The notes beneath the pieces are model-generated. The model ran no database searches. It saw only the letters and a list, made by a program, of their open reading frames with translations, and was not told the DNA's origin. 64,000 bases of DNA from Lachnospiraceae bacterium (GTDB taxonomy: Bacteria; Bacillota; Clostridia; Lachnospirales; Lachnospiraceae), in NCBI GenBank assembly GCA_017634975.1, contig JAGBMJ010000138.1, forward strand, positions 1 through 64,000. Reading direction: 5' to 3'. Positions 17,502 to 62,081 of the stretch are shown here, piece by piece. The translations under genes were made by a program, and so were the position numbers. How positions within the stretch are numbered: the stretch's first letter is position 1; every line of letters begins with the position of its first letter.

Positions 17502-19130
17502 ATGAAAGAAGAACGAGAAAAAAAGGCAGAGAAACAGGTCATTGAAAAAACAAAGACGGGACGGATCAGGATTGCCGGCGCTGTGCTGATCCCTTTCTTT
17601 GTGATATGCGGCTATGTGATCGGCGTGAAAGGGATGCAGGTGGAAGAAAGCTTCTGGGCCCTGTTTCCGCCGCTGATCGCCATTGCGCTTGCACTGATCA
17701 CAAAGGAAGTATACAGTTCGCTTTTTGTGGGGATCCTGACGGGAGCCTTGTTCTGGGCGCGGTTTGATCCGGTACAGACCTTAAACCATGTGTTTAAGGA
17801 CGGTTTCATTACAGTGATCGCGGATGCCTGGAATGTGGGGATCCTGCTTTTTCTGGTCATCCTGGGCATGATGGTGCAGCTTATGAACAGGACCGGTGGT
17901 TCCAAGGCTTTCGGACAGTGGGCCGGCAGCCGCATCAAGTCCTCTGTCGGGGCACAGCTGGCCACCATCGGTCTCGGCGTCCTGATCTTTATTGATGATT
18001 ATTTCAACTGCCTGACCGTGGGCTCGGTAATGCGCCCTGTGACAGATAAACAGAAGATCAGCCGAGAAAAGCTGTCCTACCTCATCGATGCTACGGCAGC
18101 ACCGGTATGTATCATTGCGCCCATATCTTCATGGGCTGCAGCGGTTGCCGGATTTGTCGAGGGAGAAAATGGTATGCATATCTTCCTGCAGGCGATCCCT
18201 TATAATTTTTATGCACTGCTCACGATCGCTATGATGATCATGCTGGTGACTATGAAGGTTTCCTACGGCCCTATGGCAGGTTATGAGAAGCAGGCACTTT
18301 TGGAAGCATACTGGAAAGGAGTCGAGGGTCAGACGGAAAGCGGAAACGAAGAGATCAAGGGAAGAGTCTCGGATATGGTCGTTCCTATCGTTCTGCTCAT
18401 CGCATGCTGTACGATCGGCATGATCTACACCGGAGGTTTTTTCGAAGGGGAGAGCTTTATCAATGCCTTTGCCAATTCGGACGCTTCGGTAGGACTGGTA
18501 CTCGGATCGGCTACAGCACTGATCATAACGCTTTTGTTCTATCTGCTGCGGGGGATCATCAGCTTTGAGGATTGTATGACCTGTCTGCCGGAGGGCTTCA
18601 AGCAGATGGTCCCGGCGATTCTGATCCTTACCTTTGCCTGGTCACTGAAGGCTATGACGGATAATCTTGGAGCTGCACAATACGTCTATAACATGGTGAA
18701 CGGCTCGGCAAAGGAGCTTCAGGGATTTCTGCCCTGCATCATCTTTTTGATCGCGATCGGTCTGGCCTTTTCCACCGGTACCAGCTGGGGAACCTTCGGC
18801 ATCCTGATTCCCATTGTGGTAGATTGCTTCCAGAACGTGGATCATACGATGATGATCATCGCTATTTCCGCCTGTATGGCAGGGGCAGTCTGCGGAGACC
18901 ACTGTTCCCCCATTTCGGATACTACGATCATGTCATCCGCCGGGGCGCAGTGCCGCCATATCAACCATGTGGCAACCCAGCTGCCTTACGCATTCACGGC
19001 TGCCGCGATCTCATTTGTGTGCTATCTGATCGCCGGCTTTGTACATAATCCATGGGTTCCGCTGGCGGCAGGTTTGGTATTCATATTTGTTCTTCTTTAT
19101 GTATTAAAACGCAACACAGCCAATACCTGA
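17502..19130 (+). CDS. NhaC-family Na+/H+ antiporter
   Basis: A 542-residue integral membrane protein with about 11-13 hydrophobic segments after a charged cytoplasmic N-terminus. The segments LIFIDDYFNCLTVGSVMRPVTDK, SWAAAVAGFV and CGDHCSPISDTTIMSSAGAQC are typical of NhaC/Na+-H+ exchanger (including MleN-like) proteins. It should exchange sodium for protons or couple an organic acid to that exchange; the exact substrate cannot be told. No partner enzyme (malate or arginine metabolism) adjoins it. It has its own promoter and is followed by a hairpin. Confidence 0.85.
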   Translation: MKEEREKKAEKQVIEKTKTGRIRIAGAVLIPFFVICGYVIGVKGMQVEESFWALFPPLIAIALALITKEVYSSLFVGILTGALFWARFDPVQTLNHVFKDGFITVIADAWNVGILLFLVILGMMVQLMNRTGGSKAFGQWAGSRIKSSVGAQLATIGLGVLIFIDDYFNCLTVGSVMRPVTDKQKISREKLSYLIDATAAPVCIIAPISSWAAAVAGFVEGENGMHIFLQAIPYNFYALLTIAMMIMLVTMKVSYGPMAGYEKQALLEAYWKGVEGQTESGNEEIKGRVSDMVVPIVLLIACCTIGMIYTGGFFEGESFINAFANSDASVGLVLGSATALIITLLFYLLRGIISFEDCMTCLPEGFKQMVPAILILTFAWSLKAMTDNLGAAQYVYNMVNGSAKELQGFLPCIIFLIAIGLAFSTGTSWGTFGILIPIVVDCFQNVDHTMMIIAISACMAGAVCGDHCSPISDTTIMSSAGAQCRHINHVATQLPYAFTAAAISFVCYLIAGFVHNPWVPLAAGLVFIFVLLYVLKRNTANT

Positions 19131-19133
19131 ACA

Positions 19134-19164
19134 GAAAACCACGGGGACGGACCTTGTGGTTTTC
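19134..19164 (+). terminator. Hairpin with GGGACGG core, probable terminator
   Basis: GAAAACCAC (19134-19142) and GTGGTTTTC (19156-19164) form a 9-bp perfect stem directly after the antiporter stop. The loop GGGGACGGACCTT shares its core with the loop at 26458-26470 and with the larger palindromes at 49011 and 61429. Confidence 0.6.
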
Positions 19165-19290
19165 GGGTTATTTCGATGGGATACAGATGGCGAAACTCAA
19201 TCCGGTAGGAAATCGACAAAATGTTGTTTGGATGAACAACAGACGGATTTCCGGACGTTTCGGGAATATGTCTGCTGCAGGGAAAAGGAA

Positions 19291-19782
19291 ATGAAACAGG
19301 GGAAGGATAAAAAGAAGGAAAGATTAAAGAAAGAAAGATTAAAGAAAGTTTTTACTGCGGTGATCCTGCTTACGATTGCTTTTATATGGGGGCATTCCAT
19401 GATGCCGGGAGATCTGTCCGGGGAGGAATCCGGCTTTGTCTACCGTATATTGAGTCCGGTCATGAAACTGTTTTTGCCGGATGCGTGGGTGACTGAGCAT
19501 CTGGTACGAAAAATGGCGCACTTCAGTGAGCACGGAGCACTTGGTGTTGAACTGACGCTATATGCTGCACTTTACAGGGATCTGCAGATCCGGCGTATTG
19601 CGAATATCCTCTACAGTGGGCTGACGGCAGCGTTTATAGACGAAACGATACAGATCTTTTCCGGAAGGGGAGCTGCGATCGCCGATGTATGGATCGACCT
19701 TTCCGGATTTGCAACCGGGCTTTTGATCGTAAGGCTGATCTGTATATGCCGCCAATGTCACCAACAGAAGCCCTGCGTTTGA
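19291..19782 (+). CDS. VanZ-family membrane protein
   Basis: A 163-residue protein. After a very basic start (KKKERLKKERLKK) come about four hydrophobic stretches. The pattern FIWGHSMMPGD, KMAHFSEHGALGVELTLY and DETIQIFSGRGAAIADVWIDLSG matches VanZ, where the histidine and the DExxQ/GRG...D motifs are conserved. VanZ-like proteins are linked to low-level teicoplanin resistance in Tn1546, but chromosomal members have unknown roles. The ATG at 19291 is chosen since homology and the basic N-terminus begin there; the longer frame from 19156 includes non-conserved sequence. Confidence 0.8.
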   Translation: MKQGKDKKKERLKKERLKKVFTAVILLTIAFIWGHSMMPGDLSGEESGFVYRILSPVMKLFLPDAWVTEHLVRKMAHFSEHGALGVELTLYAALYRDLQIRRIANILYSGLTAAFIDETIQIFSGRGAAIADVWIDLSGFATGLLIVRLICICRQCHQQKPCV

Positions 19783-19807
19783 CAGTATCTCTCCTTGGGT
19801 ATAAAAT
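19779..19807 (+). promoter_or_regulatory. Promoter for cysK
   Basis: TTGACA at 19779-19784, overlapping the VanZ stop codon, and TAAAAT at 19802-19807 with a 17-bp spacer. Confidence 0.6.
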
Positions 19808-19841
19808 AAATTGATATGTGACCTTAAGGAGATAAAAAAGA

Positions 19842-20774
19842 ATGATATGTGATAATGTGTTGGAATATATCGGACATACACCGATGGTACGCTTAAACCG
19901 GATGAATGACCCGGATGCAGCGGAAGTACTGGTGAAATATGAGGGATTGAATGTGGGCGGTTCGATCAAGACACGAACCGCTTATAATATGATCAAACAG
20001 GCGATCAAAGACGGCATCATTCACGAGGATACGATCATCGTGGAGCCGACCAGCGGGAATCAGGGGATCGGTCTGGCGTTGATCGGAGCTGTGATGGGTT
20101 ATGAGACCCGTATCATTATGCCGGACAGTGTAAGTGAGGAACGGCGTCTGCTGGTAAGGCACTACGGAGCGCAGGTGATCCTGGTTCATGATGCGGGCGA
20201 TATCGGGGCATGTATCGAAGAATGTTTGCAGACGGCACTTCGTATGGCGAAGGAAGATCCGAGAGTCTATATCCCGCAGCAGTTTGAAAATCCGGCCAAT
20301 CCGAGAGTACACAAGCACCATACCGGACTGGAGATCCTGGAACAGGTGGCGGGCCCTATCCACGGCTTTTGCTCCGGCATCGGTACCGGCGGTACGATCA
20401 GCGGTATCGGCGCAGTGCTCAAGGCACAGTATCCGGACATCGAGATCTGGGCAGTAGAGCCGGAGAATGCAGCAATCCTGGCCGGCGGTAATATTGGCAC
20501 CCATCTGCAGATGGGCATCGGTGACGGCATCATTCCGGCAAACTTAAATCAAAAGATCTACGATGATATCTATATCGTGACAGACGAGGAGGCAATTCGT
20601 ACGGCAAAGGATCTGGCACGTAAAGAAGGACTGATGTGCGGCATCAGTTCCGGAACAAACGTAGCAGCAGCACTTCAGCTGGCCAAGAAACTGGGAAAAG
20701 GAAAGACCGTAGTGACGGTTCTTCCCGATACGGCAGAGCGTTATTTCTCCACGCCGTTATTTGAAAATGACTGA
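19842..20774 (+). CDS. cysK: Cysteine synthase (O-acetylserine sulfhydrylase)
   Basis: A 310-residue PLP enzyme of the CysK/CBS family, full length. Lys43 in GGSIKTR should bind PLP. The TSGNQGIGLA loop binds substrate, GTGGTISG binds the cofactor phosphate, and GISSGTN near residue 268 contacts the pyridine ring. It makes cysteine from O-acetylserine and sulfide. AAGGAG lies 10-12 nt before the ATG. No cysE lies nearby. A cystathionine beta-synthase-like role is possible, but the short form without a regulatory domain favours CysK. Confidence 0.9.
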   Translation: MICDNVLEYIGHTPMVRLNRMNDPDAAEVLVKYEGLNVGGSIKTRTAYNMIKQAIKDGIIHEDTIIVEPTSGNQGIGLALIGAVMGYETRIIMPDSVSEERRLLVRHYGAQVILVHDAGDIGACIEECLQTALRMAKEDPRVYIPQQFENPANPRVHKHHTGLEILEQVAGPIHGFCSGIGTGGTISGIGAVLKAQYPDIEIWAVEPENAAILAGGNIGTHLQMGIGDGIIPANLNQKIYDDIYIVTDEEAIRTAKDLARKEGLMCGISSGTNVAAALQLAKKLGKGKTVVTVLPDTAERYFSTPLFEND

Positions 20775-20796
20775 TCCGGCAGGATAAAATGTATGA

Positions 20797-20825
20797 TTGA
20801 CACATCCGTCATACCACCCTATTAT
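20797..20825 (+). promoter_or_regulatory. Promoter for the GH2 gene
   Basis: TTGACA at 20797-20802 and TATTAT at 20820-20825 with a 17-bp spacer. Confidence 0.7.
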
Positions 20826-20868
20826 GTATAGTAGTGTAAGCGCATACAAACAAGGAAGGGAGTTATGC

Positions 20869-23800
20869 ATGAGAAGGTTGTTTAATGATGGGTGGGAGTT
20901 TTCAAAGCAGAAACCGGGGACGGATATCGATACATTGGCATCGATGCAGTTTGCGAGGATCAATGTACCGCATGACTGGATGATCGGCAATGTGGAGGAT
21001 CTGTATGAAAACTCTGTCGGTTTTTATCGCAAGAAATTTTCTCTGGAGAAAAAAGCGGGTTCCCGCTATGAGATCTATTTTGAGGGTGTCTATATGGACA
21101 GCACCCTGTATGTGAACGGGCTGGAAGCAGGCGTATGGAAATACGGCTATTCCAGTTTTTTCTTTGATATTACCGAACTCCTGAAGGACGGAGAAAATGA
21201 AGTGCTGGTAAAGGTGGTTTATCAGTCACCTAACAGCCGCTGGTACAGCGGGGCCGGGATCTACCGCGATGTGTATTTCATCGAGCATCCCGAGGTACAT
21301 CTGGTAACTGACAGTGTATATATCTCTGCTAAGCCGGCAGCGGAAGAAGGGAAGATCACGCAGGATACGGTATTGGATCAGGAATGGTTTTTAACCATCA
21401 GTGTCGAGCTGGCAAACGGTGCGGCAGACTGCAGATGGAATAAGGGCATTAACGGTCTGGCACAGGTGCCGAACGATACCGGAATCCTCTTTGAAGTTCC
21501 GGAATTGGGACTGTCCTGTGAAACAACTGCAGGTGATGCAACGGCAGAAGTATTGGCAGACCGGACAGTGCGTGTGGAATGGAAGGTGAAAGTCGATGCT
21601 CCAAAGCTGTGGTCTTTGGAAGATCCGAAACTGTATGAATGTGAAGTATCCCTGAAAAACGGGGATGCAAAGAAGGAGCGTTTCGGTTTCCGCAGTTTTA
21701 CGTTTGATACCAATAAGGGATTTTTCTTAAACGGTGTGCATGTAAAGATCAACGGAGTGTGCGAGCATCACGATCTGGGGGCCATCGGGGCGTGCTTTAA
21801 CCGTGCGGCAATGCAGCGCAAGTATGAGATCCTGCGGACGATGGGGATCAACGCGATCCGCACGGCACATAATATGCCGGCGGTGGGACTCCTGGATCTG
21901 GCGGATGAGATGGGCTTTCTGGTCATGGATGAAGCCTTTGATATGTGGGAAGGCTGCAAGACGGAATACGACTACGGCCGTTTCTTTGTGGAATGGCAGG
22001 AGCGGGATGTACGCAGCTGGATCCGGCGTGACCGTAATCATCCGAGTATCTTCTTATGGAGCATCGGAAATGAGATCTACGATACCCACAAGGATGCGCA
22101 TGGACAGGATATCACACGGTATCTGCAAAAGGAAGCAAGGGAGAATGATCCGTATGGGAATGCAGTGATCGGTATGGGATCAAACTATATGCCCTGGGAG
22201 AATACACAGAAGTGTGCGGATATCCTGAAATACGTGGGATACAACTATGCGGAGAAGTTTTACAACGAACATCATGCAGCACATCCCGACTGGTATATCT
22301 TTGGCAGTGAGACAGCCTCTACGGTACAGAGCCGCGGCATCTACCACTTTCCTTATGAGCGGGCGGTACTGGCGGATGATAACTGGCAGTGTTCGGCATT
22401 GGGCAACAGCACCACCAGCTGGGGAGCACCCAATCCGGAGTACTGCGTGATCCAGGAGAGGGATCACGATTTCTCGATGGGGCAGTTTTTGTGGTCGGGC
22501 TTTGATTATATCGGAGAGCCGACGCCGTACCATACCCGCAATTCCTACTTCGGACAGATCGATACCGCGGGCTTCCCGAAGGACAGCTACTATGTCTATA
22601 AGGCGGCGTGGACAAAGGAACCTTTTGTACACGTATTTCCGTATTGGGATTTCAATCCGGGACAGATGGTCGATGTGCGTGTAGTATCGAATGCGCCGGT
22701 GGTGGAACTGCTGGTAAATGGCCGGTCGCTTGGAAAGAAGAATATCGATCATGCGCATGGCACGGTGTTGAGCGGGGATTATCAGACACCGTATGCGCCG
22801 GGAGAGATCACGGCGGTAGCGTATGATGCGGACGGAAACGAAGTGGCCAGACAGACAAGGTATTCGTTTGGAAATGCCAAAGCGCTGGCGACAAAAGTCT
22901 ATAAGCCGGAAAAGAACTATACGGCTGGCTGCGGGGATATGGCATTTATCGAGGTATCGGCAGTGGATGCAGACGGGCATCCTGTGGAAAATGCCTGCAA
23001 TATCGTGAAGGTATCGGTAAACGGTGCAGGCTGGCTGACCGGTCTGGATAACGGTAACTCTGCGGATGAGGAGGAATACAAAGGCTGCGAGAAACGGCTG
23101 TTCTCCGGGAAGATGCTGGTGTGCATTGCGATCGGATCCGAATGCGGAGAGATACGTGTGGATCTGCAAAGTGAAGGTCTGACCGGTGCGGCGTGTACGC
23201 TTCAGGTAACGGAAAAGAAAGAGATCCCGGGCATCTCACTGCTCCCGGAAGTGTTGGATCGTGGGGGGAAAGGGATTGTCTGGCCGCGCAGGATCGAGCT
23301 GCTCTGCGACGGGGACAGACAAATGACGAAAGAGCATCAGGAGGTGCGGATCACGGCAAAGATCGATCCGCCGGAAGCAGCGGAAAAACTTAAACCGGAA
23401 GACCTGATCTGGAAGGCAGTTACCGATGACGGTATCGAGAGCAATATCGCAAAGGTCACAAAGACCGACGGCATGTGTGCTGCCGTAAAGGCTCTGGGGG
23501 ACGGAAATTTCCGGCTGCGTTGTATGACAAAATGCGGATCGGATCCGGTCAAAGTGATCTCGGAGCTGGAATTTACGGCAGCCGGGATCGGTGTGGCTAC
23601 GCTGGATCCGTACCATTATGTTGCCGGCGGTCTGTGGAGCTATGGCGAGGGTGAGATCGGTGTGGGCAATGAGCACGGCGTATCTTCGGCACGAGGGGAA
23701 CGCAGTGTGATCGGATTTGAGAATATTGATTTTGGCGCTTACGGTTCGGATGAGATCACGATCGATATCTTTAATCTCTCGGATGATCCCTTTGATTTTG

Positions 23801-24357
23801 CACTGTGGGAAGGCATCCCGGGACAGCCGGACAGTGAGAAACTTCTGGACGGGCATTACCACAAGAAGTCCATTTGGAATGTATACCAGCCGGAAACCTA
23901 CCGCTTAAGCCGCAGGATGAAAGGGTTGAGCAATCTGTACATTGTGGCAGAGGATAAAGTGCATTTCGGAGGCTTTACGTTTACGGAGTATCAAAAGGCA
24001 TACGAGCGCCTAAATGCCGGGGAATGCGATGAAGTATACGGTGACAGCTATGAGAAAAAGGCGGATCGCATTGCCGGTATCGGAAATAACGTGACCGTCG
24101 AGTTTAAGGATATGGATTTCTGCAGGGAAGCCGTGACCGGACTGAAGATCACCGGCGTGAGTCACATTCCGGTAAATACGATCCATGTGATCTTTGATAA
24201 CGGATCCGAAGAGATCCGTGATATCCTGGAATTTGCACAGGATGGCGGCGAGACGCAGAGCTTTGCAGTAAGCAGCTATTCCGGAAAGGGAACGATCCGG
24301 CTGGTATTCCTGCCGGGCAGCAGTTTTGATCTGATCGCACTGCAGTTTCAGGAGTAG
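20869..24357 (+). CDS. Glycoside hydrolase family 2 (beta-galactosidase type)
   Basis: A 1162-residue GH2 enzyme without signal peptide, so probably cytoplasmic. The order is sugar-binding domain (about 1-180, NVPHDWMIG, WYSGAGIYRDV), immunoglobulin-like domain, TIM barrel (about 285-590), then DUF4982- and Ig-like domains and a long C-terminal region. Glu402 in SIGNEI is the expected acid/base and Glu481 in GSETAS the nucleophile; FLWSGFDYIGEPTPYH closes the active site. The ATG at 20869 follows AAGGAAGGGAG; the frame extends upstream to 20797, but that is the promoter. It should cleave beta-galactosides or related sugars. No transporter or regulator adjoins it. Confidence 0.9.
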   Translation: MRRLFNDGWEFSKQKPGTDIDTLASMQFARINVPHDWMIGNVEDLYENSVGFYRKKFSLEKKAGSRYEIYFEGVYMDSTLYVNGLEAGVWKYGYSSFFFDITELLKDGENEVLVKVVYQSPNSRWYSGAGIYRDVYFIEHPEVHLVTDSVYISAKPAAEEGKITQDTVLDQEWFLTISVELANGAADCRWNKGINGLAQVPNDTGILFEVPELGLSCETTAGDATAEVLADRTVRVEWKVKVDAPKLWSLEDPKLYECEVSLKNGDAKKERFGFRSFTFDTNKGFFLNGVHVKINGVCEHHDLGAIGACFNRAAMQRKYEILRTMGINAIRTAHNMPAVGLLDLADEMGFLVMDEAFDMWEGCKTEYDYGRFFVEWQERDVRSWIRRDRNHPSIFLWSIGNEIYDTHKDAHGQDITRYLQKEARENDPYGNAVIGMGSNYMPWENTQKCADILKYVGYNYAEKFYNEHHAAHPDWYIFGSETASTVQSRGIYHFPYERAVLADDNWQCSALGNSTTSWGAPNPEYCVIQERDHDFSMGQFLWSGFDYIGEPTPYHTRNSYFGQIDTAGFPKDSYYVYKAAWTKEPFVHVFPYWDFNPGQMVDVRVVSNAPVVELLVNGRSLGKKNIDHAHGTVLSGDYQTPYAPGEITAVAYDADGNEVARQTRYSFGNAKALATKVYKPEKNYTAGCGDMAFIEVSAVDADGHPVENACNIVKVSVNGAGWLTGLDNGNSADEEEYKGCEKRLFSGKMLVCIAIGSECGEIRVDLQSEGLTGAACTLQVTEKKEIPGISLLPEVLDRGGKGIVWPRRIELLCDGDRQMTKEHQEVRITAKIDPPEAAEKLKPEDLIWKAVTDDGIESNIAKVTKTDGMCAAVKALGDGNFRLRCMTKCGSDPVKVISELEFTAAGIGVATLDPYHYVAGGLWSYGEGEIGVGNEHGVSSARGERSVIGFENIDFGAYGSDEITIDIFNLSDDPFDFALWEGIPGQPDSEKLLDGHYHKKSIWNVYQPETYRLSRRMKGLSNLYIVAEDKVHFGGFTFTEYQKAYERLNAGECDEVYGDSYEKKADRIAGIGNNVTVEFKDMDFCREAVTGLKITGVSHIPVNTIHVIFDNGSEEIRDILEFAQDGGETQSFAVSSYSGKGTIRLVFLPGSSFDLIALQFQE

Positions 24358-24378
24358 GTTGCATAGCATGATCAGATT

Positions 24379-24407
24379 TTGACAAAATCACGGAAAAAGC
24401 GTATAAT
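24379..24407 (+). promoter_or_regulatory. Promoter for the hydrogenase-chemoreceptor gene
   Basis: TTGACA at 24379-24384 and TATAAT at 24402-24407, 17-bp spacer: a near-consensus promoter. Confidence 0.8.
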
Positions 24408-24447
24408 TTCTATTAATATTTGGTTAAAATTCACATTCGCGATTTGC

Positions 24448-24472
24448 GGCAGAAAGTATAGAACTTTCTGCC
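24448..24472 (+). promoter_or_regulatory. 5'-UTR hairpin
   Basis: GGCAGAAAGT and its exact complement ACTTTCTGCC enclose a 5-nt loop in the leader of the hydrogenase-chemoreceptor mRNA, some 35 nt before its start codon. There is no T-run, so it is more likely an mRNA stability or translation element than a terminator. Confidence 0.5.
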
Positions 24473-24506
24473 CGGCGGATGGGATGTTTTCTTCGGGGGG
24501 TAAGGT

Positions 24507-26438
24507 ATGAGTCTGGTCAGAACAAACGAGAAGTGTATCGGTTGTAACCGCTGCATCCGTGCCTGCAGCAGCATGGGGGCTAATGTGGCCGTGGAAAAGG
24601 GCAGAGGCAATGTCATCGATGTGGATCCTGACAAATGTATTGCCTGTGGGGCGTGTCTGGATGTGTGTGAGCATGATGCCAGAGAGTACATTGATGATGT
24701 GGAGCAGTTTTTCGAAGATCTGAAAAAGGGCGTAAAGATCTCCGTGCTCATTGCGCCGGCCTTTCTGGCAAATTACCCGAAGGAATACGAAGCGTATCTT
24801 GGTATGCTTAAGAAACTGGGGGTGAACCGGTTCATCAGCGTATCTTTTGGGGCGGATATTACCACCTGGGGCTATATCAAATATATCACTGAGAATAAGT
24901 TCTACGGAGGGATCTCGCAGCCTTGTCCTGCCGTAGTCGGCTATATCGAGCGCTATATGCCGGAGCTGTTGCCGAAGCTGATGCCGGTGCAGTCACCGAT
25001 GATGTGTTCGGCGATCTATGCGAAGAAGTATATGAAACTGAACGATAAGCTGGCGTTTATCAGTCCTTGTATCGCAAAGAAAAACGAGATCGACGATCCG
25101 AACAATCAGGGGTATATTTCCTATAATCTGACCTTTAAGCATCTGATCCGCTATCTGCGTTCCCATCCGGTGAGCGGTGCGGCACCTTATAAAGACGAGA
25201 TTGAATACGGTCTGGGGTCGATCTACCCGATGCCAGGTGGTCTGAAGGAGAATGTGTACTGGCTTCTGGGAGAGGATGCCCTGGTGCGCCAGATGGAAGG
25301 CGAGCATCATATGTATGCATACCTTCACAAGAATGCTGCTTTGCTGAAAGGCGGCAAGACACCGTATCTGTTCGTGGATGCGCTCAACTGCACCAACGGC
25401 TGTCTGTACGGACCGGGGACGGAAGTGCGTGCAGATCTGTCGGAAGAGGTCTTTATGACGATCCAAAAGATCAAGGCAGAGAGCAAGAATTCTTCCAAAA
25501 AGTCGGCGTGGGGCCGGGGATTGACACCGAAGAAGCGGCTGGATGCACTGAATAAACAGTTTGCCAATCTGAATCTTAATGATTTTTTACGAAAGTATAC
25601 CGATCGCAGCGCAAAATGCAGACACCGAATCCCGAGCAACCGGGAACTGGAAGAGATCTATACAAAGATGCAGAAAGATACCGCGGAAAAGCGTGCGATC
25701 GATTGCAGCTGCTGCGGATATGAATCCTGTCACGATATGGCGGTAGCCATTTATAACGGCTATAACCACATCCACAACTGCGTGCATTACATCAAGGACC
25801 GTGCGTACGAAGAGAAGGACAAGGCAGTAGCGCTGACGGAAGAGATCACCAGAACGCAGGAGGAAATGCGCGAAAAGAAACTGACGCTGATGGATGAGAT
25901 CTCGGACAATTTCAGCACGCTGAAGGAAACTATTGGTCAGATTGAAGAAACCAGTTCGGATAATGTGAAGCATACGGCAGGAATCTCGGCAGATATGTCG
26001 GATGTGGATGCTTTTGCCAATGAGCTGAAACAGGTACTGAACACGATCGAAAACTGCCTGAATAAGCTGGAAACGAACAATGCGGATGTGATCGCGATCG
26101 CGGCACAGACGAACCTGCTTGCGCTCAATGCTTCGATCGAGGCAGCGCGTGCCGGAGAAGCAGGGCGCGGATTTGCGGTCGTTGCGGAAGAGATCAAAAA
26201 GCTGGCAGAGGGTTCCAAAACGACAGCTGACGACAGCAACTCCAACAATCAGGATATCCGGGAGACGATCGAGCGGCTGATCGAGGAAGCCGGAAAACTG
26301 ACGCAGATCGTAGAGCAGGTGAACGGCAGGGCTTCGACACTGGTGGCCTCTGCCGAGGAGACAACCGCCTCCATCAGCCTGATGAAGGATGTGGCGGAGA
26401 ATGTGGAAACTTCCCTTCGGCAGATCCTGCAGGATTAA
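24507..26438 (+). CDS. Ferredoxin / [FeFe]-hydrogenase / chemoreceptor fusion (putative redox or H2 sensor)
   Basis: A 643-residue soluble protein. Residues 1-60 hold two 4Fe-4S motifs (Cys10, 13, 16, 20 and 44, 47, 50, 54). Residues about 75-370 are the [FeFe]-hydrogenase large-subunit domain: QPCPA with Cys140, SPCIAKK with Cys188, and NCTNGC with Cys295 and Cys299, so all four likely H-cluster ligands are kept, but the proton-transfer Cys of the catalytic TSCCP motif is replaced. Around 395-420 a Cx2Cx4Cx16C motif can bind another cluster. The end (about 450-643) has the chemoreceptor hairpin [30 protein letters not shown]. It probably senses H2 or redox state and signals to CheA/CheW-like partners. 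No such genes are near. Confidence 0.85.
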
Positions 26439-26448
26439 ATGATCAAAA

Positions 26449-26479
26449 GAAAACCATTGGGACGGACCTGATGGTTTTT
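26449..26479 (+). terminator. Terminator with GGGACGG loop
   Basis: GAAAACCAT (26449-26457) pairs with ATGGTTTTT (26471-26479, one G-T pair). The loop TGGGACGGACCTG matches the loop after the antiporter gene almost exactly. Confidence 0.65.
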
Positions 26480-26489
26480 ATGCTTTTAG

Positions 26490-26612
26490 AATAGCGGAGA
26501 ATGCAGATGGTTCCATGCCATAGGAAGACTGTTGCGGCATGAGGACGGCACGCCGCTTTCATATGTCGGAATGTTTGTGGATATTACGGATCGAAAGAAG
26601 CCGATCGTGTAG
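26490..26612 (+). pseudogene. PAS-domain remnant
   Basis: Forty codons with no start codon, ending at TAG 26610-26612, read NSGECRWFHAIGRLLRHEDG and then PLSYVGMFVDITDRKK. This is the last strand and PAC motif of a PAS sensor domain. It is the tail of a lost sensory protein between the hydrogenase-chemoreceptor and ybaK. No other part of that gene is visible. Confidence 0.7.
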
Positions 26613-26660
26613 AAATCATATTTATAGCAGACCAAGATACGTTTGCTATGGGGAGCAGGG

Positions 26661-27137
26661 ATGAAAAAAGAGGAAAAGACCAATGTGATGCGTGTGCTGG
26701 ATGGAAAGAAGATTTCCTATGAGAGCCACAGTTATGAACCGGATGCGACTATGAGCGGAGAGGAGATCGCTGAGCTCCTGGGCGAGGATGCGCAAAAAGT
26801 TTTTAAAACACTGGTGACGCAGGGCAAGAGTGGCGCCTATTATGTGTTTGTGGTCCCGGTGAAAGAGGAACTGGATCTGAAGAAAGCGGCGAAGGCAGCG
26901 GGCGAAAAGGCGATTGCAATGATCAAGCAGAAGGAATTGCTGCCGCTTACCGGATATGTACATGGCGGTTGCTCTCCCATCGGAATGAAAAAAGCATTTC
27001 CGACGTTTCTTCACGAAACGGCTCCCGGTTTTGACCGGATCTTTGTCAGCGCCGGCAAGGTGGGCTTTCAGGTGGAACTCTCACCACAGGATCTGATCGG
27101 GATCGTCCGGTGTCAGGTGGCGGACATCGTGGTTTAA
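26661..27137 (+). CDS. ybaK: Cys-tRNA(Pro) deacylase, YbaK/EbsC family
   Basis: A 158-residue YbaK-domain protein. It removes cysteine wrongly attached to tRNA-Pro. Typical segments are YEPDATMSGEEIAELLGEDAQKVFKTLV, the catalytic-site lysine in VKEELDLKKAAKA and YVHGGCSPIGMKK. The ATG at 26661 has GGGAGCAGGG directly upstream; a longer frame starting with TTG at 26643 would include that site. Its small-domain size fits a stand-alone trans-editing protein. Confidence 0.9.
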   Translation: MKKEEKTNVMRVLDGKKISYESHSYEPDATMSGEEIAELLGEDAQKVFKTLVTQGKSGAYYVFVVPVKEELDLKKAAKAAGEKAIAMIKQKELLPLTGYVHGGCSPIGMKKAFPTFLHETAPGFDRIFVSAGKVGFQVELSPQDLIGIVRCQVADIVV

Positions 27138-27178
27138 CACTTTACAGAAAAAAGATATTATCAAAATGAAAATATCTA

Positions 27179-27207
27179 TTGACAACCCGTGCCACTTGTA
27201 ATACTGT
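27179..27207 (+). promoter_or_regulatory. Promoter for the NAD-salvage genes
   Basis: TTGACA at 27179-27184 and TACTGT at 27202-27207, 17-bp spacer. The -10 box is weak, which leaves room for activation or repression. Confidence 0.5.
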
Positions 27208-27240
27208 AATTGTAGAACAAGAGATACGGAGAAGGAGGAC

Positions 27241-27753
27241 ATGACTATGAAGAAAGCGTTGATCATTGTTGATATGCAAAAGGATTTTGTAACAGGATGC
27301 CTCGGCAGCAAGGAGGCACAGGCTGTGGTAAACGGCATTAAGAAGTATGCCGATGGCTTTGACGGAGATATCTATTTCACCAAGGATACCCATCAGGACA
27401 ACTATCTGGAGACCCAGGAAGGGAAGCGGCTTCCGGTGACACACTGCATCAAGGGCAGCGACGGATGGGAGATCGTAGATGCGCTGAAGGACATTCCTGC
27501 AAAGCAGACCTTTGAAAAGCCGGTCTTTGGCTCGAAGGCACTGGCAGAGACCATTGCAGCGAATAAGTATGATGAGGTGTATCTCTGCGGTGTATGCACC
27601 GGAATCTGTGTACTGAGCAATGCGATCCTGATCAAGGCTTACGATGCAGATGTCAGAGTCGCGGTACTCGGCGAACTGTGCGCCTGTGTGACACCGGATA
27701 CCCACAAGACCGCGCTGGGGGCAATGGCGACGGCACAGATCGATATCATCTGA
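27241..27753 (+). CDS. pncA: Isochorismatase-family amidohydrolase, probable nicotinamidase
   Basis: A 170-residue cysteine hydrolase. The catalytic Asp lies in IIVDMQKDF, a Lys near 80-100 completes the triad, and the nucleophilic Cys lies in CGVCTGICVLSNA. The metal-binding DxH pattern of classical nicotinamidase appears as KDTHQDNY. Nicotinamidase turns nicotinamide into nicotinate. Immediately downstream pncB would convert nicotinate to its mononucleotide, which supports this over other isochorismatase functions. AAGGAGG precedes the ATG at 27241; an ATG two codons later is also possible. Confidence 0.8.
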   Translation: MTMKKALIIVDMQKDFVTGCLGSKEAQAVVNGIKKYADGFDGDIYFTKDTHQDNYLETQEGKRLPVTHCIKGSDGWEIVDALKDIPAKQTFEKPVFGSKALAETIAANKYDEVYLCGVCTGICVLSNAILIKAYDADVRVAVLGELCACVTPDTHKTALGAMATAQIDII

Positions 27754-27835
27754 TAGCAATAAATAAGTTTTAAATATCATATTCAAAATAAGGTGTATTT
27801 CAGCAATTCCATTTCAGAAAGAGAGGGACAATCTT

Positions 27836-29053
27836 ATGAAACTGCAGCCGATCATCGAGAGCCTGTTGGAGACTGACCTGTATAAATTCAGCATGGGTCA
27901 GGCGATTTACCATCAGTTTCCGGACTACAAGACTACATGGACCTTTAAGTGCCGTAACACGGATGTAAAGTTTACCGCGGAAATGATCGAGGAGATCAAG
28001 GAGCAGATCAAGGCCTACTGTGAACTGCGCTTCACGGAGGAGGAACTGGCTTATCTGGATACCATTGAATGGTTTAAGGGATCCTACATCGACTTCCTTC
28101 GTCTGTGGCATCCGCGCTACGAAGATTTTGAGATCACGACCGATGCAGATTGCGGCCTGACCATCGATACCAGAGGCACCTGGCTCAACACTTCTATGTA
28201 CGAGATCCCGACCCTGGCCATCGTCAACGAAGTCTACTTCCGTATGGCATACGATTACAATCATCTGATCGAAAGCTTCAAGGAGCGCCTGGACGCAAAG
28301 TATAATGCCCTGAGGGATGGTAAGTATTACCTGGGTGTATTCTCCGAGTTTGGTCTGCGCAGACGTTTGTCTGCCGAGGCACAGGAACTGGCCGTACAGA
28401 AATTTGCAAGCCTGAATAAAGACTTAAAATGTGCGACCACCTTTGTCGGTACTTCCAATGTGTTCCTGGCAAAGAAGTTTGGTGTAAAGCCGGTCGGTAC
28501 TATGGCACACGAATGGATCATGTGTGTCGGCCAGGGCAATCACAAGCACAATCCGGCATACTCCAACTGGTATGCGCTGGATGCGTGGGTAAAGGAATAC
28601 GGCGTATTGAACGGTACCGCACTGACGGATGCCATCACTACAGACTGCTTCCTGAAAGACTTCCAGCTGACCTATTCCACTCTGTTCTCCGGTGTGCGTC
28701 ACGATTCCGGTGATCCGATCGAGTGGGGCGAGAAGATGATCGCGCACTACGAGAAGCTGGGATTGGATCCCAAGACCAAGACCCTACTGTTCTCCGACTC
28801 GCTTGATTTTGAGCGCGCGGACAAAATCTGGAGACACTTCCAGGGACGTGCAAAGGTAGCTTTCGGTATTGGTACCTATCTGGCAAACGATACCGATGTG
28901 GAACCGCTCAACATCGTTATGAAGACCACTGCCTGCAACGGACAGGATGTGGCAAAGATTTCGGATGTGGAAGGCAAGGGAATGTGCAAGAACCCGGCTT
29001 ATGTACACTATCTGAAACGATGCATCCAGTGGCGTATGGAGCACGAAAAATAA
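27836..29053 (+). CDS. pncB: Nicotinate phosphoribosyltransferase
   Basis: A 405-residue PncB protein. LLETDLYKFSMGQAIYHQFPD at the N-terminus, FSEFGLRRRLS and SGVRHDSGDPIEWGEK (with the catalytic histidine phosphorylated in this family) and the phosphate-binding FGIGTYLAND are all present. It joins nicotinate and PRPP to nicotinate mononucleotide, feeding NAD synthesis. The 82-nt gap to the nicotinamidase has no terminator, so both genes probably form one salvage operon. GAGAGGGA lies before the ATG. A strong terminator follows. Confidence 0.93.
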   Translation: MKLQPIIESLLETDLYKFSMGQAIYHQFPDYKTTWTFKCRNTDVKFTAEMIEEIKEQIKAYCELRFTEEELAYLDTIEWFKGSYIDFLRLWHPRYEDFEITTDADCGLTIDTRGTWLNTSMYEIPTLAIVNEVYFRMAYDYNHLIESFKERLDAKYNALRDGKYYLGVFSEFGLRRRLSAEAQELAVQKFASLNKDLKCATTFVGTSNVFLAKKFGVKPVGTMAHEWIMCVGQGNHKHNPAYSNWYALDAWVKEYGVLNGTALTDAITTDCFLKDFQLTYSTLFSGVRHDSGDPIEWGEKMIAHYEKLGLDPKTKTLLFSDSLDFERADKIWRHFQGRAKVAFGIGTYLANDTDVEPLNIVMKTTACNGQDVAKISDVEGKGMCKNPAYVHYLKRCIQWRMEHEK

Positions 29054-29072
29054 AGACAACATAGGGAGAACA

Positions 29073-29120
29073 TAACAACGCACCGCCCCTTGGAAAAGGG
29101 GCGGTGTTGTGTTATATTTT
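29073..29120 (+). terminator. Intrinsic terminator after pncB
   Basis: CACCGCCCCTT (29081-29091) pairs with AAGGGGCGGTG (29096-29106) around a GGAA tetraloop; the flanking AACAAC/GTTGTG bases extend the stem, and a T-rich tail follows. Confidence 0.9.
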
Positions 29121-29155
29121 AAGTATCAAACAATACTTGCAAAGGAATAGAGCCT

Positions 29156-31117
29156 ATGAATAATAAACTGGAAAGTATTGAGTTTAAATATCTGAAGAGT
29201 CTTTCGAATCAGTTCCCGAACATCGCGGCGGCTTCGACCGAGATCATCAACCTGCAGGCGATCATGAACCTGCCGAAGGGGACGGAGCATTTCCTGACGG
29301 ATATTCACGGAGAGTGTGAGCAGTTTAATCACGTGATGAAAAACGGCTCTGGTTCCGTGCGCAGAAAGATCGATGAGGAATTCGGCAATACCCTGAGTGA
29401 AAAGGATAAGCGCTCACTGGCGACACTGATCTACTATCCCAAGGAACGGCTGGCAATCGTGGAAGACGAAGAGGAGTTCCTGGAGGACTGGTATAAGGTG
29501 ACCCTGCACCGGCTGGTAAGGATGCTGACCCGTGTGTCTTCCAAGTATACCCGGTCTAAGGTTAGACGTGCACTGCCGAGGGATTTTGCCTATGTCATTG
29601 AGGAACTGATCACCGAGAAGGAAGAGCTGGAAGATAAGGAAGCGTACTATAACGAGATCATCCATACGATCATCAATATCGGCAGCGCACCGCAGTTCAT
29701 CATCGAACTGAGCGAGCTGATCCAGCGTATGGTCGTAGATCATCTGCATATCGTCGGGGATATCTTTGACCGTGGCAAGGGGCCGCATATCATTCTGGAT
29801 ACCCTGATGCACTATCATTCCCTGGATATCCAGTGGGGCAACCATGACGTGATCTGGATGGGCGCTGCAGCGGGCGATATGACCTGTATCGCTACCGTGA
29901 TCCGTAATTCCGCGCGCTATGGCAATCTGGACACGCTGGAGGAAGGCTACGGGATCAATCTGGTGCCTCTGGCGACCTTTGCCCTGCAGACCTATGCCAA
30001 GACCGATTGCGGCGTGTTTGCCATCAAGTACGACGATGATTACAATACCCGTGACCTGGAACTGGATATGCGGATGCACAAGGCCATTTCCATACTGCAG
30101 TTCAAGCTGGAAGGGGCAACGATCCGCAGAAATCCGGAGTGGAACATGGATAACCGACTGCTTCTGGATAAGATCGATTATGAGAAAAAGACCGTCAAAG
30201 TGGACGGTAAGGAATATGCGATGCGGGATGTGGATTTCCCTACCGTGGATCCGCGTAATCCGTATGCGCTGACCGAAGATGAGCAGCTGGTTATGGAACG
30301 TCTGGTAGCGGCCTTTAAGCACAGCGAGAAGCTGCAAAAGCACGTGAAGTTCCTCTATTCCAAGGGGGCGATGTATAAGGTGCACAACTCCAACCTGCTT
30401 TATCACGGCTGCGTGCCCATGGATGAGAAGGGAAACTTCCGTTCCCAGAGCATCGCGGGCGTGGAGTACAAGGGTAAGGCGCTGTACGATGCGCTGGAGA
30501 TGTATGCGAGAAAGGGCTATTATTCCAAGGATCCCAAGGAGCGGCAGTTTGGCCGGGATATCCTGTATTATATCTGGACCGGTGAGAATTCGCCGGTGTA
30601 CGGTAAGGATAAGATGACCACCTTTGAGCGTTACTTCATCGAAGATAAGGAGACGCACAAGGAAGTAAAGAACCCGTATTACAGCCTTTACAACAATGAG
30701 GATGTGGTCAATTCGATTATGGAAGAATTCGGACTCAGTCCAAAGAATTCTCACATCATCAACGGACACGTGCCGGTAGAAGTGGCAAAGGGCGAGACGC
30801 CGATCAAGTGCGGCGGCAAGCTGCTGGTCATTGATGGCGGCTTTTCCAAGGCCTACCAGGCCAGGACCGGGATCGCGGGCTACACGCTGGTAGCCAATTC
30901 CCATGGTATGTATCTGGTAAGCCACCAGCCGTTCGAGAGCAAAGAGGTGGCTGTGCGTACCGAGGCAGATATCGTCAGTGAGCGTATTCCTGTGGAGATG
31001 GCACCCAGACGTATTATGGTAGCGGATACCGATGTCGGTAAGGAGCTGAAGGAGAGCATCAGTCAGCTGGAGAAGCTGCTGGAGGCATACCGCGAAGGCA
31101 TCATACTCGAAAAATAA
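29156..31117 (+). CDS. fbp: Fructose-1,6-bisphosphatase, class III
   Basis: A 653-residue FBPase of the Firmicutes type III, of usual length. It belongs to the metallophosphatase fold: LTDIHGE, HIVGDIFDRG and WGNHD supply the metal ligands, and NGHVPVE near residue 540 gives the later histidine. It removes the 1-phosphate of fructose bisphosphate for gluconeogenesis. A start at 29156 fits the conserved LESIEFKYLKSLSNQFP beginning. It converges on the phosphoketolase gene and shares a two-way terminator. Both enzymes act on fructose 6-phosphate, which may explain the pairing. Confidence 0.93.
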   Translation: MNNKLESIEFKYLKSLSNQFPNIAAASTEIINLQAIMNLPKGTEHFLTDIHGECEQFNHVMKNGSGSVRRKIDEEFGNTLSEKDKRSLATLIYYPKERLAIVEDEEEFLEDWYKVTLHRLVRMLTRVSSKYTRSKVRRALPRDFAYVIEELITEKEELEDKEAYYNEIIHTIINIGSAPQFIIELSELIQRMVVDHLHIVGDIFDRGKGPHIILDTLMHYHSLDIQWGNHDVIWMGAAAGDMTCIATVIRNSARYGNLDTLEEGYGINLVPLATFALQTYAKTDCGVFAIKYDDDYNTRDLELDMRMHKAISILQFKLEGATIRRNPEWNMDNRLLLDKIDYEKKTVKVDGKEYAMRDVDFPTVDPRNPYALTEDEQLVMERLVAAFKHSEKLQKHVKFLYSKGAMYKVHNSNLLYHGCVPMDEKGNFRSQSIAGVEYKGKALYDALEMYARKGYYSKDPKERQFGRDILYYIWTGENSPVYGKDKMTTFERYFIEDKETHKEVKNPYYSLYNNEDVVNSIMEEFGLSPKNSHIINGHVPVEVAKGETPIKCGGKLLVIDGGFSKAYQARTGIAGYTLVANSHGMYLVSHQPFESKEVAVRTEADIVSERIPVEMAPRRIMVADTDVGKELKESISQLEKLLEAYREGIILEK

Positions 31118-31174
31118 GCGACACCGCATCGAAAAGCGTTGCTGACAAATGCAGTGTCAAGACTGAAATAAAAA

Positions 31175-31206
31175 ACCGGCAGAGTCGAAACTCCGCCGGT
31201 CTTTTT
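31175..31206. terminator. Bidirectional intrinsic terminator
   Basis: ACCGGC...GAG and CTC...GCCGGT form a stem with a short CGAA loop. A T-run follows on the plus strand and an A-run precedes it, so it can end both fbp and the converging phosphoketolase mRNA. Confidence 0.85.
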
Positions 31207-31227
31207 ATTGCTTATCGTAGATCTTAA

Positions 31228-33609
31228 TTAGTTCTGGTCTTCCCACTTCCAGTTTACTACTTCCGGAAGGTCTACGCCGTAGTCAGCGATGTACTGCTTG
31301 TGCTCAACCAGCTTGTCGCTCATCTTCTGATACAGATATGCGCCACGGTTGCCCAGCTGCGGCAGGAACTTCAGAGCGTCCTGTACCAGGTGGAAACGGT
31401 CGATATCGTTCTGTACACGTACATCGAAAGCAGTAGTGATGGTACCTTCTTCTTTGTAACCGCGTACATGCATCAGACGGTTGTTGTGACGACGATAGGT
31501 CAGCTCGTGTACCAGTGTTGCATAGCCGTGGAAGTTGAAGATTACCGGCTTGTTGGTAGTGAACAGCATATCGTACTCTGCATCGGACAGGCCGTGCGGA
31601 TGCTCGGTCTGCGGAACCAGCTTGAACAGGTCAACTACGTTGATGAAACGGATCTTGATGTCCGGCAGTTCCTTACGAAGGATGGATACTGCTGCCAGTG
31701 CTTCCAGAGTCGGGGTCTCACCTGCGCAGGCAAATACGATATCCGGCTCCTGGCCCTGATCGTTGGAAGCCCAATCCCAGATGCTGATACCCTGTGTGCA
31801 GTGCTTAACAGCTTCCGGCATGGACAGCCACTGCGGACGCGGATGCTTGGATGCAATCACAACGTTTACATAGTTGCGGCTCTTCAGGCAGTGATCCATA
31901 GTGGACAGCAGCATGTTGGTGTCTGCCGGCAGGTAGATACGTACCACGTCAGCCTTCTTGTTCGCGATATGATCCATAAAGCCCGGATCCTGATGTGTAA
32001 AGCCGTTGTGGTCCTGCTGCCATACGGTAGAGCACATCAACAGGTTCAGGGAAGCGATTTCCTCTCTCCAAGGCAGCTGGTTGCAAACCTTCAGCCACTT
32101 AGCGTGCTGAGCACCCATGGAGTCGATGATACGGGAGAATGCTTCGTAAGTATTGAAGAAACCGTGACGACCGGTGAGCAGGTAACCTTCCAGCCAGCCT
32201 TCGCACATATGCTCGGAAAGCATGGAGTCCATTACACGGCCGAAGCGGGACAGATGATCGTCCATATCGCTCTGGTCTGCGTTCCAGTCTCTGTTCTCTA
32301 CTTCGAATACGGAAGAGAAGCGGTTGGAGTTGTTCTCATCCGGAGAGAAGATACGGAAGTTCTTAGCTTCCGCGTTCAGCTTGAAGATATCGCGGATGTA
32401 GTTGGAAAGGTTGGAAGTATCCTGGCTTTCCTTTGCACCGTGTGCTTCGGTATCAAATGCATAGTTACGGAAATCAGGGAGACGCAGGTCACGCAGCAGC
32501 TTACCGCCGTTAGCGTGCGGGTTCATACCCAGTCTTGCATCACCGGTCGGGCACAGAGCTTCGATCTCCGGAAGTACGCGGCCGTTCTCGTCGAACAGCT
32601 CTTCCGGCTTGTAGCTGCGCAGCCACTCTTCGAGCATACCCAGGTGCTCCGGCTTGTCCATCATGATAGGTACCTGATGAGCCAGGAAGTTGCCCTCGAT
32701 ACGGTTGCCGTCTACTACCTTCGGACCGGTCCAACCCTTCGGTGTACGCAGAACGATCATCGGCCATACCGGACGGGTAGCGTCGTTGTTCTCACGAGCG
32801 TTCTTCTGGATGGCTTTGATCTTCTCGATCACGATATCCATGGTCTCAGCCATCTTGCGATGCATAGCCATCGGCTCATCGCCTTCTACGAAGTACGGCT
32901 CCCAGCCATTACCGTGGAAGAAATCGGTCAGCTCTTCTTTGGAAAGACGGCCGAAGATGGTCGGGTTAGCAATCTTGTATCCGTTCAGGTGCAGGATCGG
33001 AAGAACCGCACCGTCGCCTACCGGGTTGATGAACTTGTTGCACTGCCAGGAAGTAGCCAGAGGGCCGGTCTCAGCCTCACCGTCACCTACAACAACAGTA
33101 GCGATCAGATCCGGGTTATCAAAGATGGCACCGCAGCCGTGAGCGATGGAGTAACCAAGCTCGCCGCCTTCGTGAATGGAACCCGGAGTTTCCGGTGCAC
33201 AGTGGCTCGGAACGCCGCCCGGGAAAGAGAACTGCTTGAACAGTTTCTGCATACCTTCCTCGTCACGGGAGATATTCGGATAGATCTCGCTGTAAGATCC
33301 GTCAATATAATCATTTGCAATAAAGAAGTTTCCGCCGTGTCCCGGACCGGACAGAAGGATCATGTCCAGATCATAACGCTTGATGGCACGGTTGCAGTGC
33401 AGGAAGATGAAGTTCTGACCGGGAACGGTTCCCCAGTGACCTACGATCTTCTTCTTAACCATATCTGCGGTCAGAGGCTTTTTCAGAAGCGGGTTCTCCA
33501 GCAGGTACAGCTGACCTGCGGACAGATAGTTGGCCGCACGGAAGTACTTGTCCATTCTCTGGATCAGTTCGTCCGTAATGGGGCCTTTTTCGATAATACT
33601 GTTGTCCAT
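31228..33609 (-). CDS. xfp: Xylulose-5-phosphate/fructose-6-phosphate phosphoketolase
   Basis: A 793-residue thiamine diphosphate enzyme of normal length. The cofactor motif is [14 protein letters not shown]; the N-terminal [14 protein letters not shown] and [13 protein letters not shown] segments, and [10 protein letters not shown] and FVDLF-like stretches later, are typical of Xfp. It splits xylulose 5-phosphate or fructose 6-phosphate with phosphate to give acetyl phosphate and a sugar phosphate. In an anaerobe this gives a pentose or bifid-type fermentation route to acetate. GAAAGGA precedes the ATG. The sequence shows strong codon bias, as expected for a highly expressed gene, and this produces a long antisense open frame. 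Confidence 0.95.
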
Positions 33610-38476: not shown

Positions 38477-38550
38477 GGGATCATAGCTCAGCTGGGATGA
38501 GCGTCCGCTTGACGTGCGGGAGGTCACAGGTTCGAACCCTGTTGGTCCCA
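38477..38550 (+). tRNA. tRNA-Val (GAC)
   Basis: A complete cloverleaf can be drawn: 7-bp acceptor stem GGGATCA/TGGTCCC, D arm GCTC...GAGC, anticodon stem TCCGC/GCGGG with loop TTGACGT (anticodon GAC), and T arm ACAGG-TTCGAAC-CCTGT. The discriminator base is A at 38550, and CCA is not encoded. The GAC anticodon reads valine GUC/GUU codons. A strong terminator follows at once, so it is a single-gene unit. Confidence 0.92.
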
Positions 38551-62063: not shown

Positions 62064-62081
62064 CGTATGGAGGGAGAAGAG

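Follow-up and report, generated by a model that had tools for sequence, protein, structure and literature searches.

The window analysed here, a stretch of 64,000 nucleotides from a gut-type Lachnospiraceae bacterium, contains on its + strand (24507-26438) a single open frame of 643 amino acids, a hydrogenase-fold chemoreceptor gene. With somewhat better than even probability its product is a soluble Nar1-like chemoreceptor that would hold a cubane without any HydEFG-made [2Fe] and provide a redox or O2 readout. The receptor is more likely to sense the redox state or O2 than H2 because none of HydE, HydF and HydG was found in its own genome; indeed, all three are reported to be required for HydA maturation and the cubane to come from the general Fe-S machinery (PMC6212873), so that a conserved H-domain in a genome without HydEFG is most simply a cubane-bearing one.

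Architecture and genomic setting of the fusion protein

From the N- to the C-terminus the protein comprises two 4Fe-4S ferredoxin motifs (24531..24680, Fer4_7 in Pfam, residues 9-58, with cysteines 10, 13, 16, 20, 44, 47, 50 and 54), an [FeFe]-hydrogenase H-domain (24738..25415, Fe_hyd_lg_C PF02906, residues 78-303, 106.7 bits against a cut-off of 22.1), a C-terminal Cx2Cx4Cx16C 4Fe-4S motif (25698..25784, FeS PF04060, residues 398-426, with cysteines C400, C403, C408 and C425), whose match is marginal (24.1 bits, cut-off 23), and a coiled-coil MCP hairpin (25797..26435, residues 431-643) with MCPsignal PF00015 over residues 526-640 (81.7 bits, cut-off 34.6). All these features lie on the + strand, and the fusion of ferredoxin, hydrogenase, Fe4S and chemoreceptor parts announced in the original prediction is thus borne out by one frame with the Pfam domains expected. 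The relatives returned by phmmer are solved [FeFe]-hydrogenases for one half of the protein and chemoreceptors for the other, while its listed NCBIfam matches are below cut-off, the best being FeFe_hydrog_B1 with 145 of 450 bits.

Within the H-domain, the L1 motif QPCP (24918..24929, +, residues 138-141, in the context ISQPCPAV) contains the ligand C140 preceded by a proline, P139, at the position of the group A proton-transfer cysteine (C299 in CpI), in keeping with the predicted change from TSCCP to a QPCP form. The L2 motif PCIAKKNE (25065..25088, +, residues 187-194) contains the ligand C188 and K191, the latter aligned with the group A lysine (K358 in CpI), and the L3 motif (25377..25412, +, residues 291-302) contributes the ligands C295 and C299.

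As to the output half, the protein has by Pfam both an MCPsignal domain and the conserved signalling hairpin, whose tip is presumably near E551, as placed by comparison with the Tsr tip motif. Two methylation-like sites at 25935..25958 (+, residues 477-484, EE480/481) and 26346..26369 (+, residues 614-621, EE617/618) are pattern matches located at a similar distance from the tip. Pfam detects no PAS domain, and no 19-residue window of the protein exceeds a mean hydropathy of 1.6, the maximum being 1.28, which agrees with the anticipated lack of membrane helices.

The gene is preceded by a sigma-70-like promoter-like site TTGACA-17-TATAAT (24379..24407, +) with 12/12 consensus matches, such sites not being in excess across the region (2 found, mean of 2.6 in shuffles), and followed by a terminator-like hairpin with a T tail (26449..26479, +; 1 found, mean of 1.8 in shuffles). 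Its neighbours are a glycoside-hydrolase-like ORF, labelled by eye, and a gene with a tRNA-editing domain; no che or hyd gene was noticed when the list of ORFs of 18000-33000 was inspected by eye. Elsewhere in the window are found a SecA protein of 863 amino acids (54352-56943), a tRNA gene (38477-38550), the only Rfam match of the window at the gathering threshold, and two ORFs with no Pfam match at 1e-15 (35926-37443, 505 amino acids, and 62067-63491, 474 amino acids). Operon linkage was rejected as a functional guide: 66 of 76 loci are preceded by an ORF of 140 amino acids or more, and the largest neighbour cluster spans 14 loci and is headed by a response regulator at varying positions. 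At L016, L017 and L078 the fusion is immediately preceded, in the same orientation, by a group B-type gene, of which L013 has a fragment.

The partners expected of a chemoreceptor are encoded on contig C101 of the own genome, which carries CheA (with Hpt, P2, dimerisation, ATPase and CheW domains), CheW, CheC, CheD and CheB, together with a sigma factor, a YcgR-type gene, an FHIPEP (FlhA) gene and an SRP54-type GTPase that, from its position, we take to be FlhF. Furthermore, CheW is present in 42/42 genomes with a verified MCP fusion and in 68/102 other relatives. The chemoreceptor output is therefore supported by the occurrence of Che proteins beside flagellar genes and by the presence of CheW in every verified carrier, and the total lack of a CheA/CheW-like partner, which would have spoken against the predicted output, is not what this genome presents.

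Conservation of the sensor module

The search for relatives, in which the best 80 of 109 loci were kept, returned titles mostly of Lachnospiraceae, many of them rumen MAGs, AC2028, XBB2008 and P6A3 being among those not marked as MAGs. When 103 distinct relatives of 600-710 amino acids were aligned, the choice being made on length and span (the set examined with Pfam overlaps with this one but is not identical), C140, C188, C295, C299, C400, C403, C408 and C425 are kept in 103/103 rows, and Q138, P139, S163, P164, C167, S186, P187, K191, E194, L293, G298 and G302 are likewise invariant. All eight ferredoxin cysteines are kept wherever the row has a letter, the first four in 101/101 such rows.

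The four probable H-cluster cysteines named in the original prediction (140, 188, 295 and 299) indeed coincide in the alignment with the four ligands of the group A-type HydA rows, and the equivalent of CpI K358 is kept in 43/44 rows of the 44-row set. Compared with the group A-type rows, on the other hand, C299 of CpI is replaced by proline, M353 by serine and M497 by leucine; serine and leucine at the last two positions are as reported for the group D protein TamHydS (PMC8163306). The loss of the proton-transfer cysteine, with P139 in all 103 relatives, fits the expectation that turnover is probably weak or absent.

The extra invariant cysteine C167, which the original prediction does not name and which stands in the sequence SPMMC (25005..25007, +), is kept in 103/103 relatives, in 44/44 rows of the wider set and in at least 90% of 21 class-wide rows. 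In its column no cysteine occurs in any aligned group A, B or D-like row and a cysteine occurs in 2/8 of the 570-aa rows ("D-like" and "570-aa" being class names coined in this analysis), whereas L154 and L158, members of the module clade with other outputs, are among the few members without it. The conservation of C167, which might serve a cluster in an otherwise empty pocket, appears to be new here.

Occurrence of the H-cluster maturases

The own genome is a draft of 147 contigs, 99.13% complete and with 7.46% contamination, in which no match to HydF exceeded the cut-off and no match was obtained for HydG at E 1e-3 or for HydE at 1e-40. Of the combination that the original prediction held against itself, absent maturases and misplaced cysteines, this draft presents the former but, judged by the alignment with group A-type rows, not the latter.

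Among 144 relatives, HydF was found over the cut-off in 62, HydE in 62, HydG in 56 and any of the three in 65. Of 44 candidate proteins, each from a different genome, 42 were confirmed to have MCPsignal, the other two being a kinase (G062) and a contig-end fragment (G028). A maturase is present in 11 of these 42 fusion genomes, and 31, the own genome included, have none of HydE, HydF and HydG over the cut-off, as compared with 54 genomes with and 48 without among the other 102 relatives (p = 0.005, kinship ignored). Completeness reaches at least 90% in 24 of the 31 maturase-less fusion genomes and at least 99% in nine, again counting the own genome, one of these nine (G105) having a sub-cut-off HydE match; partial sets occur in G029 (HydE only) and G044 (HydE and HydF only). 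Maturases accompany the fusion in 4/20 genomes within the genus and in 7/22 outside it, where 15/22 are without, and 11/14 carriers outside the family of the window, among the 144 relatives, lack all three. When HydF was searched in the genomes of 44 of the 80 named loci it was present in 18/44 and absent from AC2028, XBB2008 and P6A3. The earlier suggestion that H2 binding may remain is weakened by the failure to find HydE, HydF or HydG in the own genome and in 30 more of the 42. This independence of the fusion from HydEFG appears to be new here.

The wider sample consisted of 393 class-wide genomes of at least 90% completeness, some shared with the 144, in which the maturase searched was HydF. 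The sensor module was found at E 1e-60 or better in 23 of them, and HydF is present in 15/23 carriers and 244/370 others (259/393 overall by the same search); since p = 1, there is no link either way between module and HydF. The frequency of HydF among these carriers is 3/8 inside the family of the window and 12/15 outside it, so that in this sample the lack is concentrated in that family. In 20 of the 23 carrier genomes, 21 proteins were inspected; all five proteins from HydF-negative carriers that were checked with Pfam have both Fe_hyd_lg_C and MCPsignal, one of the five, with an MCP domain of 86.8 bits, being from a one-contig genome (G458).

Selection on the H-domain and maturase status

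The dN/dS values between the window protein and L007, the closest of six pairs tried (both genomes without HydF; most segments of the other pairs saturated), are 0.012 for the H-domain, 0.044 for the linker and C-terminal cluster and 0.094 for the MCP half, so that purifying selection on the H-domain is strong in this one close pair. On the 44-row tree, which includes the kinase G062 and the fragment G028, maturase status changes 10 times (7 of the changes forced by starred branches), the shuffled mean being 10.7 and 184/500 shuffles being as low as the observed value. Using the same 44 rows, no column of residues 1-430 was found to track maturase status, the best column being reached by 13/60 permutations. 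Low dN/dS, scattered maturase status and the lack of a tracking column together indicate that the H-domain is needed and that its sequence is alike with or without HydEFG.

Other H-domain proteins of maturase-less genomes

A second H-domain protein of the own genome is a group B1 [FeFe]-hydrogenase (C64 6565-8058; L001 865-2361) that matches TIGR04105 with 571.9 bits (cut-off 450); this paralogue has an intact TSCCP and no MCP, and belongs to a separate clade. Group B-type proteins occur, among the matches listed, in 88 genomes, and 71 of them, down to approximately 33% identity and with only three either checked against TIGR04105 or closely akin to it, were inspected. Both L1 cysteines are kept in 45/45 of the rows from maturase-less and 26/26 of those from maturase-bearing genomes, one of the former having TSCCN instead of TSCCP. 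The retention of these cysteines in maturase-less genomes implies either that these proteins, too, are without [2Fe] or that there is an undescribed maturation route, with which the chemoreceptor might still sense H2. An extra cysteine of the group B-type proteins (SPMC) was tried and rejected as a mark of maturase-less genomes: it is present in 20/45 maturase-negative and 4/26 maturase-positive rows and follows one sub-group of the sequences.

The TSCCP class of approximately 570 amino acids, assigned by length and match span, is accompanied by maturases in 27 of 30 cases among the matches listed, eight of its proteins having been inspected at the sequence level, and the D-like class in 11 of 14. 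Four H-domain proteins of about 570 amino acids (L163, L164, L166 and L168) have the L1 CC pair together with the C-terminal cluster motif.

Other outputs of the module

The module is fused also to hybrid histidine kinases (L143, L151, L154, L159 and L160), to a histidine kinase that ends at a contig edge (L118) and to c-di-GMP outputs, namely GGDEF-EAL (L144, L145, L152 and L158), GGDEF (L162) and an HD-GYP-type HD domain (L147). According to a quick-search H-domain tree of 70 rows, the module is a single clade (SH-aLRT 100, stem 1.53) separate from group A, group B, the 570-aa TSCCP class and the D-like sequences, and its outputs require 8 changes among MCP, kinase and c-di-GMP. A literature search covering mainly papers outside subscription journals returned no report of maturase-less carriers or c-di-GMP outputs, and no title or abstract opening on H-domain sensors independent of HydEFG or on [FeFe] sensors linked to GGDEF; the wider output range of the module appears to be new here.

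Proposed mechanism and alternative explanations

The protein would be a soluble cytoplasmic chemoreceptor whose N-terminal module of ferredoxin, H-domain and Cx2Cx4Cx16C motif is derived from [FeFe]-hydrogenases and would carry conventional iron-sulphur clusters only, the cluster of the H-domain being probably a [4Fe-4S], with the old [2Fe] pocket perhaps holding something not made by HydEFG and possibly involving C167. The state of the clusters may be altered by ferredoxin electron flow or by O2 damage, and this change would be transmitted through the C-terminal cluster domain to the MCP coiled coil, altering the activity of CheA, so that swimming would follow, in a presumed direction, the internal redox state.

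Points that count against the cubane-only reading are the 11 fusion genomes with a maturase, the presence of HydF in 12/15 class-sample carriers outside the family of the window and the draft state of the own genome. Furthermore, K191 and further pocket residues are invariant or nearly so and look as if the [2Fe] site mattered. The alternative of a genuine H2 sensor, whose complete H-cluster would be matured without HydEFG along an undescribed pathway or with maturases divergent beyond detection, accommodates this, along with the retention of all four ligands, the match of S186 and L293 to the TamHydS pocket, the persistence of both L1 cysteines in the 45 group B-type rows whose genomes have no maturase and the reported H2 turnover by group C/D proteins that lack C299 (PMC8163306, PMC10055695). 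It is nevertheless unlikely, though to be taken seriously, in view of the essentiality reported for all three maturases (PMC6212873), of an own genome with no HydG match even at E 1e-3 and of a receptor whose evolution is indifferent to maturase status. That same indifference bears on a mixed use, in which one protein tolerates both states and is an H2 sensor where HydEFG is present and a cubane-only redox sensor where it is not: the pocket is alike in maturase-positive and maturase-negative sets, maturases do occur in 11/42 fusion genomes and HydF in 15/23 class-sample carriers, and synthetic [2Fe] is reported to insert spontaneously into apo-TamHydS (PMC8163306), but the HydF rate in the class sample equals the background (p = 1) and no column shifts with maturase status, which makes this rather improbable.

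That the maturases are present and were missed in draft assemblies could be argued from the fragmentation of the own genome, the many MAGs among the relatives and the incomplete sets of G029 and G044; it would require, however, the loss of three genes in each of 31 genomes, whereas three non-MAG genomes and a one-contig genome are also without HydF and the same search detected HydF in about two thirds of the class sample, so that we regard it as very unlikely. Scarcely credible is an enzymatically active hydrogenase attached to the chemotaxis array: although the H-domain ligands are kept, the proton-transfer cysteine is a proline in every aligned relative, no maturases were found and a long stem separates the module clade from the catalytic groups.

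Comparison with known systems

The Nar1-like chemoreceptor favoured here is, as a fusion, of a known kind. HydDB (2016) lists C1 as histidine kinase-linked, C2 as chemotactic and C3 as phosphatase-linked, all putative (PMC5037454), and C2 shares with the window protein an H-domain tied to a methyl-accepting chemotaxis output and a proposed sensory role. The likeness rests on the MCP linkage, the clade of the window standing apart from A, B, D-like and 570-aa sequences in our own tree, and the two differ in that H2 sensing is proposed for C2 whereas here 31 of the 42 carriers among the relatives yielded no HydEFG match over the cut-off. The earlier remark that a chemoreceptor output is far less discussed must accordingly be qualified, C2 having been named in 2016, but holds in so far as little was found beyond that: an acetogen survey is reported to have discarded hits by motif check, chiefly [NiFe] 4f and [FeFe] C2 (PMC9431212), and the papers on TmHydS and TamHydS cover a PAS-linked and a PAS-less protein (PMC8163306, PMC10055695, PMC13104023). 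Metagenome studies count group C genes as putative H2 sensors (PMC12578642, PMC6776011). If many MCP-linked members are without [2Fe], the H2-sensor label would be wrong for these and the role of H2 sensing in rumen and gut communities maybe overstated; if instead they have [2Fe], HydEFG-independent assembly of the H-cluster would overturn the accepted maturation scheme.

The HydS proteins of groups C and D have, like the window protein, 2x[4Fe-4S], an H-domain and Cx2Cx4Cx16C, and have lost C299, the proton-transfer cysteine being reported as conserved in neither group (PMC8163306). Unlike them, the window protein has the MCP joined directly, with no PAS domain, a proline at the C299 position and the extra C167. 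In the group D protein TamHydS the C-terminal cluster is reported not to be reduced by H2, and its redox state is argued not to be the signal carrier (PMC13104023), a result that counts against a redox relay in the window protein. The group B1 TIGR04105 paralogue offers a comparison of another sort, being an H-domain protein of the same maturase-less genome.

Nar1 is described as an [FeFe]-hydrogenase homologue without [2Fe]H, having O2-labile clusters and a [2Fe-2S] proposed for the empty pocket, although Nar1 homologues obtained from anaerobic E. coli have also been reported to show hydrogenase activity, a point against its use as a cubane-only precedent (PMC12621388). Like the window protein, Nar1/IOP1/CIAO3 is a hydrogenase homologue with the cubane-site cysteines and no [2Fe] maturases; its clusters are O2-sensitive, as those of the window protein would be, but it is a eukaryotic Fe-S assembly factor and not a signalling fusion (PMC12621388). 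The window protein, moreover, ends in RQILQD, without the Nar1-like C-terminal tryptophan for CIA targeting. We give even chances to the broader proposal that the H-fold without HydEFG-made [2Fe] is a general redox or O2 sensor with swappable outputs, a prokaryotic counterpart of Nar1; if this is true, and taken together with the group B-type proteins, many catalogued "hydrogenases" and "H2 sensors" would be without an H-cluster, or else there would be a second maturation route.
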